Of a stretch of DNA of 60,513 nt, positions 42,029-60,513 are shown one piece after another (position 1 is the first letter of the stretch; every line of letters starts with the position of its first letter). The position numbers and the translations under genes were made by a program. The notes under the pieces were generated by a model. It was not told where the DNA came from. It searched no databases and saw only the letters and a program-made list of their open reading frames with translations. The stretch comes from a bacterium (GTDB lineage Bacteria; Eisenbacteria; RBG-16-71-46; CAIMUX01): positions 1 to 60,513 of the forward strand of contig JAUIHP010000029.1 of the NCBI GenBank assembly GCA_030431975.1, in the 5' to 3' direction.

Positions 42029-42105
42029 CGGGGCGTGGCGCAGTCAGGTAGCGCACTTGCATGGGGGGCAAGTGGTCGCTGGTTCAAATCCAGTCGCCCC
42101 GACCA
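42029..42105 (+). tRNA. tRNA-Pro(GGG)
   Basis: A 77-nt cloverleaf with acceptor CGGGGCG/CGCCCCG, anticodon stem CTTGC/GCAAG, loop ATGGGGG with anticodon GGG, T arm GGTTCAAATCC and encoded CCA. Confidence 0.95.
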
Positions 42106-43756: not shown

Positions 43757-43833
<77 letters not shown>

Positions 43834-55639: not shown

Positions 55640-57307
55640 CTACGCGGCCTTGTCCCAGAACTTCAGCTTCGAGACGAGACCCTCGCCGGAGTTCCCGCCG
55701 CCTTCGACGACGTGGAGTCCGGAGTAGCCTCCGGAAGAGCCGGCGTGCGAGCCACCTCCGTCGCTACCGACCAGATCGCGCAACGTTTGAATCTGTTCTC
55801 CGATGGCTTCGGCCTGATCGCTCAACATGTTCGCCGCCGAGGATGCTTCCTCGGCGCTGGCGGCATTCTTCTGTGTGACCTGGTCGATCTGGTTGAGAGC
55901 CGATCTCACCTGAGCTGTCGTCTTGGACTGCTCGTCACTGGCGGCAGCGATTCCCTGGACAAGGTCAGTGGACGTCTGAACGGAGTGCTGGATCCGCTCG
56001 AGCCCTTCCGAGACGTCCTTCGCCGAGGCAGAGCCCTTCTTGGACATCTCCATGGATCGGCGAATGCGCTTGTCGGTATCGCTGGCCGCCTCGGCCGTTT
56101 TCTGCGCGAGGGTTCCCACTTCCTCGGCGACGACGGCGAAGCCTTTACCGGCTTCTCCGGCGCGGGCCGCCTCGACTCCTGCGTTGAGGGCGAGCAGCTT
56201 GGTCTGGAAGGCCACGGACTCGATGTTGTTGATGATCTCCGCCATCTCGTTCGAGGCTTCCTGAAGCTCACTCAGGAACTGGCGCATGTTCGTGGCGTCG
56301 GCCGCACCGGCGGCCGCTTCCTCCCGCGCTTTCAGTGCGGTGGAGTGAGCCTTCTGCGAGGTCGCGGCGTTTTCTTCTGCGGAGGAAGCCAGCTCGGTCA
56401 CGGCGGACGAGGTTTCCTCGAGTGAGGCCGCCTGGCGCGCGGAGCCTTCCGCCAGAGTGTCACTGTTCTGCCGGACAACACGGGCCTGAGCCTTCAGATC
56501 CGTGGCGATCTCAGTCAGCTGGTGGGATGCGCGGCGAATGCTGTCGACGAAGTGGCCGAGAGGACGACCGACGACGAAGCCGACGACCGCCACCGCGATG
56601 ACGAGAAAGCCGAAAGCCCACTTGATGATGGTCCAGGCCGTGGCCGTGGCTGCGGCCTGCACGGGCTCCAGGTCCGAGCGGATTGCGAACATTCCGCGGA
56701 GCATTCCGTCATGCCAGTTTTCCATCGGGTAGCCGAGGATGTCCTTCCCGTTGCCCCACGGACTCGTCTTGGGGTCCCCGTGACAGGTCAGGCATCCCTC
56801 GTTTGCGCTGAGATGAACCGGGCGCATGACCCAGAGCTCGTTCGCGTCCTCGTTCCTCCACGTGATCTGGTCCAGATTCGGGTCCCGCTCGAATTGGGAG
56901 AGGAACTCACGCTCCTTTGCAGTCGGCGTGTTCTTTTCGTTGCGGGGGTTGTTGGCCGCGATTCGGAACTCGTAGTGGTTCTCCTCGGCCCTGTCCGATC
57001 CGATCGACATCGACGCGACGATGGGAACGCTACGCAGAATCTGTTCCTTGGCATGACGGGGAAGATTCCCGTCCGGGTAGCTTTTGACCGCATCGGCCAT
57101 GAGAGCGTCCGCCGTGCCCTGCGTTGCAACGAACTTGCGGGCGGACTCCAAGCGAGAGAGGATGGCCTCACTTTTGGCTTCCAGCTCCTTGAGCTCGACT
57201 TTCTCCACCTGTTTGGTCGAAACCCAGGCCGCGCCTCCAGTACAGAAGAGACACGCCACTCCGACCGACACCAAGATTCTTTCCCGAAATCCAAAGCTGA
57301 AAGCCAC
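55640..57307 (-). CDS. Methyl-accepting chemotaxis protein with a periplasmic haem-motif (Tll0287-like) sensor
   Basis: About 555 residues from GTG 57307, with GGAGGAGG just upstream. A membrane segment ([18 protein letters not shown]) precedes a ~190-residue periplasmic domain with [17 protein letters not shown] and CLTCHGDP, a c-type haem CxxCH in the Tll0287/DUF3365-type domain. A second segment ([18 protein letters not shown]) leads to a HAMP-like part and the signalling helices with the hairpin [20 protein letters not shown] and [11 protein letters not shown]. It should report redox state or a haem-bound ligand to CheA/CheW. No other chemotaxis gene is in the window. Confidence 0.9.
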
Positions 57308-57762
57308 GACCGAGCCTCCTCCGAAATGACGCCTAACCCGAGTCCGGCTTAGGGATCGTCGTCGCCGAGGCGTCTCTTTAAGGATTCTGATCGATGCGGA
57401 AGGCAAAGATTTCCACGGGCGCGAGTGCGACCGTGCTCGCAGGCGCTCGTCCAGGTTCGGTTGGCGTCCGGTCCGGCTACCGGGGACGAGACGGGCTGCG
57501 GAGGGTGAGACTTTTCATTGTTCATCGGTCATGGGGTGGACGGGAGGTGGATGTGGGGAGGAAAAACGTGCCCCCGACAGGGATCGAACCTGTGGCCTAC
57601 GGTTTAGGAAGTCTCTACCCCCACCCTTGAAACCTAACGAGACACGTTCGGAGATCGCAGCAAGTTACGATGCCAACTGACGTTTCCTCCTCATAGTTCG
57701 CTTCTCTTCGATGTCCGGTTTCGCCGGATTTGGTGCCCGTTGGGCACGAAGAGGAGTCTTAA
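57308..57762. other. 455-base intergenic region with the chromosome/element junction
   Basis: The left part (57308-57568) shows no gene or RNA that I recognise. The tRNA-Arg fragment at 57569-57610 follows, then 150 bases of element DNA leading to the primase start. Short open frames here translate the tRNA fragment and are not genes. Confidence 0.7.
57569..57610 (-). other. 3' fragment of tRNA-Arg(CCT), probable attachment site
   Basis: On the minus strand the sequence runs from the anticodon loop TTCCTAA (57604-57610) through the 3' stem ACCGT, T arm ACAGG-TTCGATC-CCTGT, acceptor half CGGGGGC and A73. The 5' half is missing: bases upstream of the loop do not pair (GAGAC in place of ACGGT) and no D arm follows. 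A 3' tRNA piece next to a primase gene is the usual footprint of tyrosine-integrase insertion. CCA is not encoded here, unlike the three intact tRNAs in the window. Confidence 0.8.
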
Positions 57763-59973
57763 ATGCCGCACACGTCGCCGCACACGGCGAACCCGCGGCT
57801 TGCCTCTGCACTTGCGGCGGCAGCGCGCGGCTGGCCTGTCCTTCCGTTGGTTCCACGGGGGAAGGTGCCGGCGATTCAGGGCGGTCGAGGTGTCCACGAT
57901 GCGACGACCGACGCCGAGCAGATCCGAGAATGGTGGCGGTCCGATCCGGAACGCAACTACGGGATCGCGCTCGGAAGCGGACTTGTCGTCCTGGACATGG
58001 ACAAGCGACACAGCGGCCACCTCAACCTCGAGCGCTTGGAGGTGGAGCACGGAGCACTTCCGGATAGCGTCACGGTTGAGACTGCGGACGGCCGTCACTA
58101 CTACTTCGAAGCCCAACAGGTGGCTTCATGGGAGCCGGGGCCAGGCATGGAGCTCCGTGCGTCCGGCTCTTATGTCGTCGGCCCTGGCTCCATTCATCCG
58201 ACCGGCAAGCGCTACGACTTCGCGGAAGGTCGATCGCCACGAAGCGTCTCCCTTGCGGCTCTCCCGGACTGGCTTCGCAAGCCGGACAGGCCGAGTCGTC
58301 GGCAGGCCGCGGGGCCGGTCGATACTGAAGACGTTGCAAAGGCGCTCCGGGCGATCGAGGCCCTAAGTTCGTATCGCCGCGAGGACTATTCGCAGTGGCT
58401 CAAGGTCGGCCAGGCACTTCACTCCGTTGACGACAGCGCCGAGATGCTCGAGACGTGGGAAGAATGGTCCCGACCTTCAGACAAGTATGAGCCGGGAGCT
58501 TGCGAGAGGAAGTGGAACTCCTTCCGCCGCGATGGCGGCCTCGGCCTGGGCTCGCTGATCGCCTGGGCCAGAGATGACAGTCCGGGCTTTCAGCCCACAA
58601 CCCCGACGACACACGAGCCCCCAGGACAAAGAGTCTACTCCCTGACGGACATGGGCAACGGGCAACGGATGGCCGATCAGCATCGGGGCACGGTGCTCTA
58701 CTGCGACCCAATGAAGTGCTGGTTTTATTGGGATTCCCGCCGCTGGCGACTCGACCAGACCTGCGAAATTGATCGGCGCGCGAAGAGTACGGTCAGGCAG
58801 ATTGATCGCGAAGTTGCCGAGGCGTCGGACCCTGACAAACGCAAGAAACTGCGCGCTTGGGCGAGCCAATCGGAGAGCCTTCGGAGTCTCCGCGCCATGA
58901 TCGAGATGTGTCGGTCCGAGGCTGGGATTCAGGTTGAGCCGACGAACCTGGACCGAAGCCCTTGGTTGCTCACGGTCGAAAACGGGACCGTGAACCTGCA
59001 GACCGGAGAGCTTCGGCCACATCGGCAGGAAGACCGGATTACGAAGCTGGTTCCGGTGGCCTATGACCCTGAGGCCGAGTGTCCGCGCTGGCTTCAGTTC
59101 CTGGATGAGGTCACGGGCGGAGATGTGGAACTCGCGGACTATCTCCAGCGCGCGGTGGGGTATTCGCTCACCGGAGACACGCGGGAACACAAGCTCTTCT
59201 TCATGCATGGCGGGGGACGGAACGGCAAGAGCGTCTTCCAGAAGATCGTCCTGAAGATCTTGGGAGACTACGGCCAGCAGACACCCGCGGAGACACTTCT
59301 CGCCGGCGGCCAGAAGGCGGGAAGGGCCTCGCCAGAGCTGGCCCGATTCAAAGGCGTTCGCTTCGTCTCAGCCGTTGAGGCCGACCAGAACCGGCGCTTG
59401 GCCGAAGCACTGATCAAGCAGCTGACGGGCGGCGACACGATCGCAGCGCGTGACCTCTTCGCGAAGATGATCGAGTTCGCGATGGAGGCAAAGCTTTGGC
59501 TCGCGTCGAATCACAAGCCCAAGGTGCAGGGCCAGGACTTCGCCCTATGGAGCCGCATCCACCTCATTCCTTTTCGAGTTCGGTTCGAAGGCAGCAAGCA
59601 GGACAAGCAGCTGGCCGCAAAGCTGGAGCAGGAATTGCCGGGCATCCTCGCATGGGCAATCCAGGGAACCCTCGCTTGGCTTCGCGACGGACTCCAACCA
59701 CCTGACATCGTTCTCGAGGCAACGCAGACCTACCAAGCCGAGCAGGACGTTCTTGGGGCCTTTCTATCCGAACGGACGCAATCGGGAGGGAGCGCGAAGA
59801 AAACGGCCCTGTGGGATGCCTACAAGAGCTGGTGCCGCGACGCTGAAGAGAAGCCGCTGGCAAAGGCCAGCTTCTACGAATCACTTACGGAGAGAGGCTA
59901 CGAAGAGACGCGAACGAAGCAGTCTAGGCTCTTTGTCGGCCTTGAATTGATCGAGGACCAAACATGCTTCTGA
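57763..59973 (+). CDS. Phage/plasmid primase-helicase (Prim-Pol, D5_N, SF3 helicase)
   Basis: A 736-residue P4-family replication protein. The N-terminal ~170 residues form a bifunctional primase/polymerase domain (GWPVLPLVPRGKVPAIQGG, VVLDMDKRHSGH with the acidic pair, VGPGSIHPTGKRYDF). A PriCT-2-like helical part follows (YSQWLKVGQALHSVDDSAE). The D5_N segment (TVENGTVNLQTGELRPHRQE) leads to an SF3 helicase with Walker A HGGGRNGKSVF near residue 490 and sensor ASNHKPKVQG. The start is ATG 57763, with GAGGAG seven bases upstream. It would replicate the element after excision. Confidence 0.93.
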   Translation: MPHTSPHTANPRLASALAAAARGWPVLPLVPRGKVPAIQGGRGVHDATTDAEQIREWWRSDPERNYGIALGSGLVVLDMDKRHSGHLNLERLEVEHGALPDSVTVETADGRHYYFEAQQVASWEPGPGMELRASGSYVVGPGSIHPTGKRYDFAEGRSPRSVSLAALPDWLRKPDRPSRRQAAGPVDTEDVAKALRAIEALSSYRREDYSQWLKVGQALHSVDDSAEMLETWEEWSRPSDKYEPGACERKWNSFRRDGGLGLGSLIAWARDDSPGFQPTTPTTHEPPGQRVYSLTDMGNGQRMADQHRGTVLYCDPMKCWFYWDSRRWRLDQTCEIDRRAKSTVRQIDREVAEASDPDKRKKLRAWASQSESLRSLRAMIEMCRSEAGIQVEPTNLDRSPWLLTVENGTVNLQTGELRPHRQEDRITKLVPVAYDPEAECPRWLQFLDEVTGGDVELADYLQRAVGYSLTGDTREHKLFFMHGGGRNGKSVFQKIVLKILGDYGQQTPAETLLAGGQKAGRASPELARFKGVRFVSAVEADQNRRLAEALIKQLTGGDTIAARDLFAKMIEFAMEAKLWLASNHKPKVQGQDFALWSRIHLIPFRVRFEGSKQDKQLAAKLEQELPGILAWAIQGTLAWLRDGLQPPDIVLEATQTYQAEQDVLGAFLSERTQSGGSAKKTALWDAYKSWCRDAEEKPLAKASFYESLTERGYEETRTKQSRLFVGLELIEDQTCF

Positions 59974-59980
59974 GTCGAGG

Positions 59981-60080
59981 GGTGACAAAAGTGACAGTTT
60001 TAGACCCTAGTTGGACACCCTTCTCGCGCGCGTGGGAGGGAGGTGTACCTACCGACCTCAAAAGTGTCATTTCTGTCACC
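59981..60080. repeat. Inverted pair of GGTGACA-type 17-mers, candidate operator
   Basis: GGTGACAAAAGTGACAG (59981-59997) and, on the minus strand, GGTGACAGAAATGACAC (60080-60064) match at 14 of 17 positions and face each other across 66 bases. Each copy itself contains two TGACA pentamers 10 bases apart. The pair fills the gap between the primase stop and the next gene, suggesting a binding site for a dimeric regulator or a replication protein. Confidence 0.55.
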
Positions 60081-60094
60081 CGATGGAGGTTGCG

Positions 60095-60511
60095 ATGAGT
60101 GCAGATCCTCAGGAACTCCCAGAAAACAGGAAGAATCGCGGTGTGATGGAACTCCGCGGCTCCAAGCGCGCCGCCGAAGCCCTGGCCGAAGGCAAGAACT
60201 ACCAAGATGCCGCGCACCTGGCCGGGATCAACCGACGGACGCTCTTCGTGCGGCGACAGGATCCCGCGTTCATGGAGTACGTCCGCGAACGTCGCGCGGA
60301 CATGTTTGAGGCTACAGCCGGCAAGCTGACGGAGACATCGCAGGCCGCCGCGGACAAGCTGGCTGACCTGCTGGACTCCGAGTCGGAGCAGACCGCCCTG
60401 AGTGCCGCCCGCGCGATCCTGGAGCACGCAACGCGCCTTCGGGAGCTGCTGGAGATCGACGTGCGCCTGGCCGCCCTGGAGAAGGCCCTCGCGACGCAGG
60501 AAGAGCAATGA
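60095..60511 (+). CDS. Small helix-turn-helix protein, possibly terminase small subunit-like
   Basis: A 138-residue protein from ATG 60095, with GGAGGT four bases upstream; an earlier in-frame ATG (60011) would run through the repeat region. An HTH-like stretch (YQDAAHLAGINRRTLFVRRQ) lies near residues 43-62. A long helix follows (MFEATAGKLTETSQAAADKL). Size, HTH and position in a phage-type module resemble small terminase subunits, but an element regulator is equally possible. Its TGA overlaps an ATG at 60508, where the next gene (perhaps the large terminase) would begin off the window. Confidence 0.65.
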   Translation: MSADPQELPENRKNRGVMELRGSKRAAEALAEGKNYQDAAHLAGINRRTLFVRRQDPAFMEYVRERRADMFEATAGKLTETSQAAADKLADLLDSESEQTALSAARAILEHATRLRELLEIDVRLAALEKALATQEEQ

Positions 60512-60513
60512 CG

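Follow-up and report, generated by a model that had tools for sequence, protein, structure and literature searches.

The window, the whole stretch of DNA analysed here, is contig C29, 60,513 bp long, from a genome assembled into 59 contigs (6.19 Mb). Its right end contains a tRNA fragment, a primase-helicase gene, a candidate replication origin and a gene for a terminase-small-subunit-like (TerS-like) protein, and shares its last bases with the start of another contig of the same genome, C41. The features are as follows.

57568..57610, minus strand: 3' fragment of tRNA-Arg(CCT), the distal attachment site, with a 43-bp direct-repeat core 100% identical to C41:324-366
57611..60513, plus strand: element interior within the window, 2,903 bp; the rest is C41:128-323 (196 bp)
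57678..57689, plus strand: TGACGTTTCCTC, possible integrase arm-type site, with an inverted copy at C41:290-301 near the other element end
57763..59973, plus strand: primase-polymerase/helicase (Pri-Rep), 736 aa; Pfam Prim-Pol, PriCT_2 and D5_N, phrog_1156, TIGR01613
59980..60001, plus strand: left iteron arm of the candidate origin, GGGTGACAAAAGTGACAGTTTT; 22-nt inverted repeat, 86% complementary, 58-nt spacer
60060..60081, plus strand: right iteron arm of the candidate origin, AAAAGTGTCATTTCTGTCACCC; inverted repeat, same layout 3' of related primases
60095..60511, plus strand: TerS-like helix-turn-helix (HTH) protein, 138 aa; phrog_2538, likely start ATG at 60095
60387..60513, no strand: 127 bp identical to C41:1-127, an assembly-graph overlap (exact terminal match of the C29 right end and the C41 left end)
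60508..60513, continuing as C41:122-274, plus strand: 50-aa open reading frame (ORF) whose start overlaps the TerS-like stop (ATGA)

Integration into tRNA-Arg(CCT) and gene content

The initial annotation described a 3' half of tRNA-Arg(CCT) without a 5' half. We find this fragment at 57568-57610, 43 bp long and one base longer than described. ARAGORN called no tRNA at this position, as expected of a 3' half. The sole other perfect copy of the fragment in the genome is located at C41:324-366 (100% identity, E 8e-16), inside an intact tRNA-Arg(CCT) on the minus strand (C41:324-398) that begins 324 bp from the C41 start. Such an intact gene, sharing the segment and lying to the right, was anticipated by the initial annotation. 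A third match in the whole-genome search, at 86%, is a separate tRNA-Arg(TCT). The block common to both copies covers tRNA nucleotides 33-75, from the anticodon loop to the 3' end, and both copies are on the same strand. Elements that integrate into the 3' half of a tRNA gene classically leave such a footprint: a direct repeat of the 3' part, with the element lying between the fragment and the intact copy. The 43-bp repeat, the intact same-strand tRNA at the other element end and a geometry as expected thus confirm that the element is integrated in the 3' half of tRNA-Arg(CCT), as first proposed. The initial annotation also expected a tyrosine integrase beside the intact tRNA and took its absence as an argument against integration. 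No integrase is present in the 3,099 bp of the element, but this does not overturn integration, since the repeat and the intact tRNA show it independently.

Near the element ends, TGACGTTTCCTC and its inverted copy form a perfect 12-bp inverted match, a value reached by 4 of 2000 shuffles. We suggest that the pair could be integrase arm sites. An empty site was sought in relatives via the flanking exchanger gene; the relatives were too diverged, and no tRNA adjoined that gene in them. A chemoreceptor gene with a Tll0287-like (probable haem-binding) sensor domain (window 55640-57406) adjoins the integration site.

The gene directly after the tRNA fragment encodes an intact primase-helicase, in agreement with its first description as P4-type. 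It matches the TIGR01613 "P4 family" (E 4e-88), Prim-Pol (E 4e-41), D5_N (E 7e-35) and phrog_1156 (E 4.5e-168), and its primase catalytic and Walker motifs are intact (LDMD, GRHY, Walker A GGGRNGKS, AVEAD and SNH). A single-sequence search of viral contigs returned no close relatives of this primase or of the TerS-like protein.

The HTH protein was initially regarded as a possible terminase subunit, and its best family is indeed a terminase small subunit (phrog_2538, E 2.9e-9), although this is a remote profile match. Five homologues (L176, L107, L166, L229 and L236) were tested, and terminase small subunit is the best family for four of them; L236 is the exception, with excisionases matching first. 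L244 and L250, which match the profile more distantly, are clearly terminase small subunits. The predicted structure contains an HTH and a long helical hairpin (pLDDT 78). A Foldseek search of solved structures with this model gave no match at E<=0.001. The VIA-align rows for the model are unrelated helical hairpins, and TerS is not among the rows listed, which excludes nothing. The protein has one weak match in phage records and one weak, interrupted match in the 98 other genomes of the relatives' set, and phrog_2538 has a few weak matches across the 47 genomes of the host class.

Only three ORFs with support are found in the 3,099-bp element. The third, of 50 aa, matches no family, and none of the ORFs in the relative loci examined is homologous to it. 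No regulator, excisionase, capsid-redirection or interference genes were found in the element, and a PADLOC defence search gave no match. Large terminase, portal and capsid genes are also absent from the 3.1-kb path, a result that holds only if there is no longer path.

A candidate origin behind the primase-helicase

A candidate origin lies immediately 3' of the primase gene and ahead of the TerS-like start codon; it consists of GTGACA repeats in two sets of opposite orientation. In a mismatch-tolerant test, its arm score was reached by 0 of 300 dinucleotide-preserving shuffles. Owing to mismatches in its arms, the same origin fails a test that requires exact 8-mers (p 0.26). The 58-nt spacer between the iteron sets is not AT-rich (36% AT).

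Related primases are followed by the same origin plan with other repeat words (GTACCC, GTACCGCAT, GTGATCC and GTGTAGG). Counting GTGACA failed as an origin test because the repeat differs between loci, and it was replaced by a test that counts exact 8-mers recurring in inverted orientation at a distance of 15-160 nt within the 250 bp 3' of the primase (p<=0.02). With this test, the opposed iteron layout was detected 3' of related primases at 55 of 86 loci, against 2/79 upstream, 1/86 inside the gene and 2/60 at 1.5 kb further on. The viral contigs, counted after removal of near-identical ones, gave 29 of 51, against 1/50 upstream and 2/54 and 1/42 in the other two control regions. A GGACTT core in the origin spacers was also considered as a family rule and rejected, as the longer motif is common to only 4 loci.

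In phage-inducible chromosomal islands (PICIs), the origin consists of two iteron sets directly 3' of rep and is functional in a plasmid test, and this organisation was reported in no other known bacterial replicon (PMC6092414). The origins of SaPI Rep and SCCmec Cch2 occupy the same position, directly downstream of the gene (PMC7581432). Our survey (loci L135-L214 and L228-L307) places opposed iteron sets, called unique to PICIs in PMC6092414, directly behind most primase-helicases of this family, in many bacterial phyla and in viral contigs, with a repeat word that differs from locus to locus. The viral-contig result suggests that the two-iteron-set origin is not confined to PICIs and goes with the primase family. 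As the repeats are locus-specific, direct tests become possible of where the origins of these elements lie and of which enzyme part recognises the repeat.

Element size, contig junction and integrase

The right end of C29 and the left end of C41 share exactly 127 bases. Exact 127-base overlaps also occur at the C38/C24 and C44/C26 ends, and 127-base starts are shared by C9/C24 and C32/C9. We therefore take 127 as the assembler's k and C29 and C41 as graph neighbours. If the two contigs join, the element comprises 57611-60513 and C41:128-323, 3,099 bp in total. Its end then lies 196 bp past the window, in place of a search range of about 60 kb to the right, and the large and perhaps new cargo supposed off the right edge is absent if the join runs through the 127-bp overlap. 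The GC content of the element (61.8%) shows no difference from that of the host.

The main doubt concerns this junction. A contig ends at a graph vertex because some further edge exists; the junction is thus a branch, and a longer version of the element may be present in other cells. Some or most cells might carry a longer, integrase-bearing element; the 3.1-kb path would then represent either a variant with a deletion or a shortcut taken by the assembly at the C29/C41 branch. Related loci are consistent with this. L176 (Myxococcales) has a TerS-like gene after a related primase and, ~3.7 kb on, an integrase adjoining tRNA-Asn; the order in L149 is primase, HNH endonuclease, integrase and tRNA-Thr. 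These relatives place the integrase between the primase or TerS-like gene and the tRNA, a position that corresponds precisely to the C29/C41 junction. An integrase could be held by six short contigs in the bin (1.5-2.8 kb), which lie outside the searched sequence. On the other hand, an overlap of exactly k is what a simple branch would produce, and with a vertex of the simplest kind, where one edge enters and two leave or two enter and one leaves, the direct C29-C41 path would be real. A hidden loop between the contigs would require a repeat of exactly 127 bp. Moreover, the 127-mer occurs in no readable contig besides C29 and C41 (the same six short ones set aside), and C41 continues without a break past the element end into the chromosome, which leaves no second path rejoining there. 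Overall, we consider a longer element rather unlikely. Excision heterogeneity was rejected as the cause of the contig break, as it would be expected to break the assembly at the attachment core and not inside the TerS-like gene. The 47-bp pattern of the contig end was sought in viral contigs and was not found.

The missing integrase is explained by loss, by supply in trans or by a longer variant. A PF00589 search of the own genome returned three proteins, none near the element. Two appear Xer-like, as judged by length and sequence, and one lies on contig C18 beside a tmRNA. There, a second small element (C18:37806-43162, corresponding to L107:11807-17163) ends at the tmRNA and contains a TerS-like gene, a gene for a DUF3987 protein, a small AlpA-like HTH gene and a gene for a 502-aa tyrosine integrase. 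The TerS-like proteins of the two elements share 31% identity over 107 aa. Possible GGCGACA iterons lie behind the DUF3987 gene of the C18 element and are not significant alone. In the search for an attachment repeat at the tmRNA, the best match was at chance level and a left repeat was not found.

Relation to phage satellites

In PICIs, pri/rep is followed by an origin with two iteron sets and sometimes by terS, all in one direction (PMC6092414). The window element resembles PICIs and SaPIs in its fused primase-replicase, its opposed-iteron origin immediately 3' and a TerS-like gene next in the same direction; it is likewise bounded by attachment sites and has no structural genes (PMC6092414). 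The TerS homologue, optional in PICIs, is recognised here remotely, by profile. Unlike PICIs and SaPIs, the element has no int, stl/rpr or alpA regulator, excisionase, capsid or interference genes, is 3.1 kb long compared with the usual roughly 15 kb, and belongs to a different bacterial lineage. Its spacer also differs from the AT-rich melting region of PICI origins.

Other small elements share parts of this organisation. P4-like satellites have a P4-family primase-helicase and chromosomal integration in common with the window element, which, in contrast, lacks an integrase and sid/psu/delta and has a TerS-like gene and the PICI-type origin layout. PICMIs, minimal satellites of Vibrionaceae, are similar in their very reduced gene set with a dominant replication module; they differ in having three core excision/replication proteins, with AlpA as key regulator, a location next to fis and no terS (PMC10803314). 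The SCCmec Cch2 and SaPI5 Rep modules have a D5_N helicase gene with an iteron origin directly downstream (PMC7581432), as here, but with a separate polymerase or in a different element type. The C18 element shares the homologous TerS-like protein and differs in its tyrosine integrase, its AlpA-like HTH, its position at a tmRNA and a DUF3987 protein instead of a Prim-Pol primase.

These comparisons lead us to favour, as the probable explanation, a PICI-like phage satellite that sits at the tRNA-Arg(CCT) 3' half and has been reduced to a module for replication and packaging. Of the two kinds in the initial proposal, a satellite fits better than a phage, given the order of primase, PICI-type origin, TerS-like gene and attachment site and the absence of a large terminase or structural gene. 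The integrase-bearing C18 element with its homologous TerS-like protein, in the same genome, argues for the PICI-like reading. Arguing against it are the spacer that is not AT-rich, the remote TerS matches, the lack of a regulator and excisionase, the host-like GC content and the contig break, which indicates another graph branch.

Part of the same evidence would also fit the remnant of a tailed prophage, left with the early region for replication and the first part of a packaging operon. Primases of the same family occur in tailed phages. Phages usually have terS ahead of terL, and in the element the start codon of a further ORF overlaps the stop of the TerS-like gene. However, this 50-aa ORF is complete, shows no similarity to terL and is followed by the attachment site. 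The C18 element, in which no structural gene was recognised, also has a homologous TerS-like gene, and the order of origin and terS is that of PICIs. We regard a prophage remnant as unlikely.

For the favoured PICI-like satellite, the following course of events can be proposed. The repeats show that a circular element recombined with the anticodon-loop and 3' part of the tRNA gene, presumably through a tyrosine integrase. The 3' copy brought by the element rebuilt the tRNA on the right, and the fragment on the left is the chromosomal copy that it displaced. If the element were freed as a circle, the primase-helicase would, by the precedent of PICI, SaPI and Cch2, recognise both of the inverted GTGACA iteron sets, open the duplex there and initiate replication. 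The TerS-like protein would direct the large terminase of a helper phage to the satellite DNA. As integrase and regulator genes are absent from the assembled path, the element could leave only with an integrase supplied in trans. It is most likely a deletion derivative now fixed in place. The best name is a stripped derivative working like the replication-packaging half of a PICI, and it is probably immobile. If true, this shows how far a phage satellite can shrink with its replication and packaging genes intact.

A complete and functional mini-satellite, excised and re-integrated by the integrase of another element or phage, appears much more doubtful. Such a satellite of ~3.1 kb would live on a primase, an origin, a TerS-like gene and an attachment site, with integrase in trans from a co-resident element and packaging by a helper phage, which is possible but unsupported; it would be smaller than any chromosomal satellite known to us. 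The coding genes and both attachment ends are intact, the 12-bp inverted repeat at both ends resembles integrase arm sites, and integrase-lacking satellites packaged in virions (VEIMEs) have been reported (PMC10690885). However, integrase-less satellites in chromosomes usually look inactivated and are read as inactive, even though they occur in virions (PMC10690885). The 97%-complete genome contains no integrase for tRNA-Arg(CCT), its sole clearly mobile-type integrase lying beside the tmRNA, and no second copy of the element.

Several further elements were noted in this work. An ~8.3-kb element with a related primase in Verrucomicrobiaceae (L168:4491-12876) is flanked by copies of a 39-bp segment from the tRNA-Thr(CGT) 5' half, which points to integration into a tRNA 5' half. 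In Herbaspirillum (L162:7212-10722), a primase is followed 95 bp later by an integrase, possibly another very small element. The host genome also contains three large serine recombinases (C6:2-394, C6:8805-9263 and C24:66839-67297), two of them at contig ends, which probably mark further mobile elements. Within the window, two tRNA-Pro genes (GGG and CGG; 42029-42105 and 43757-43833) are located 1.7 kb apart.
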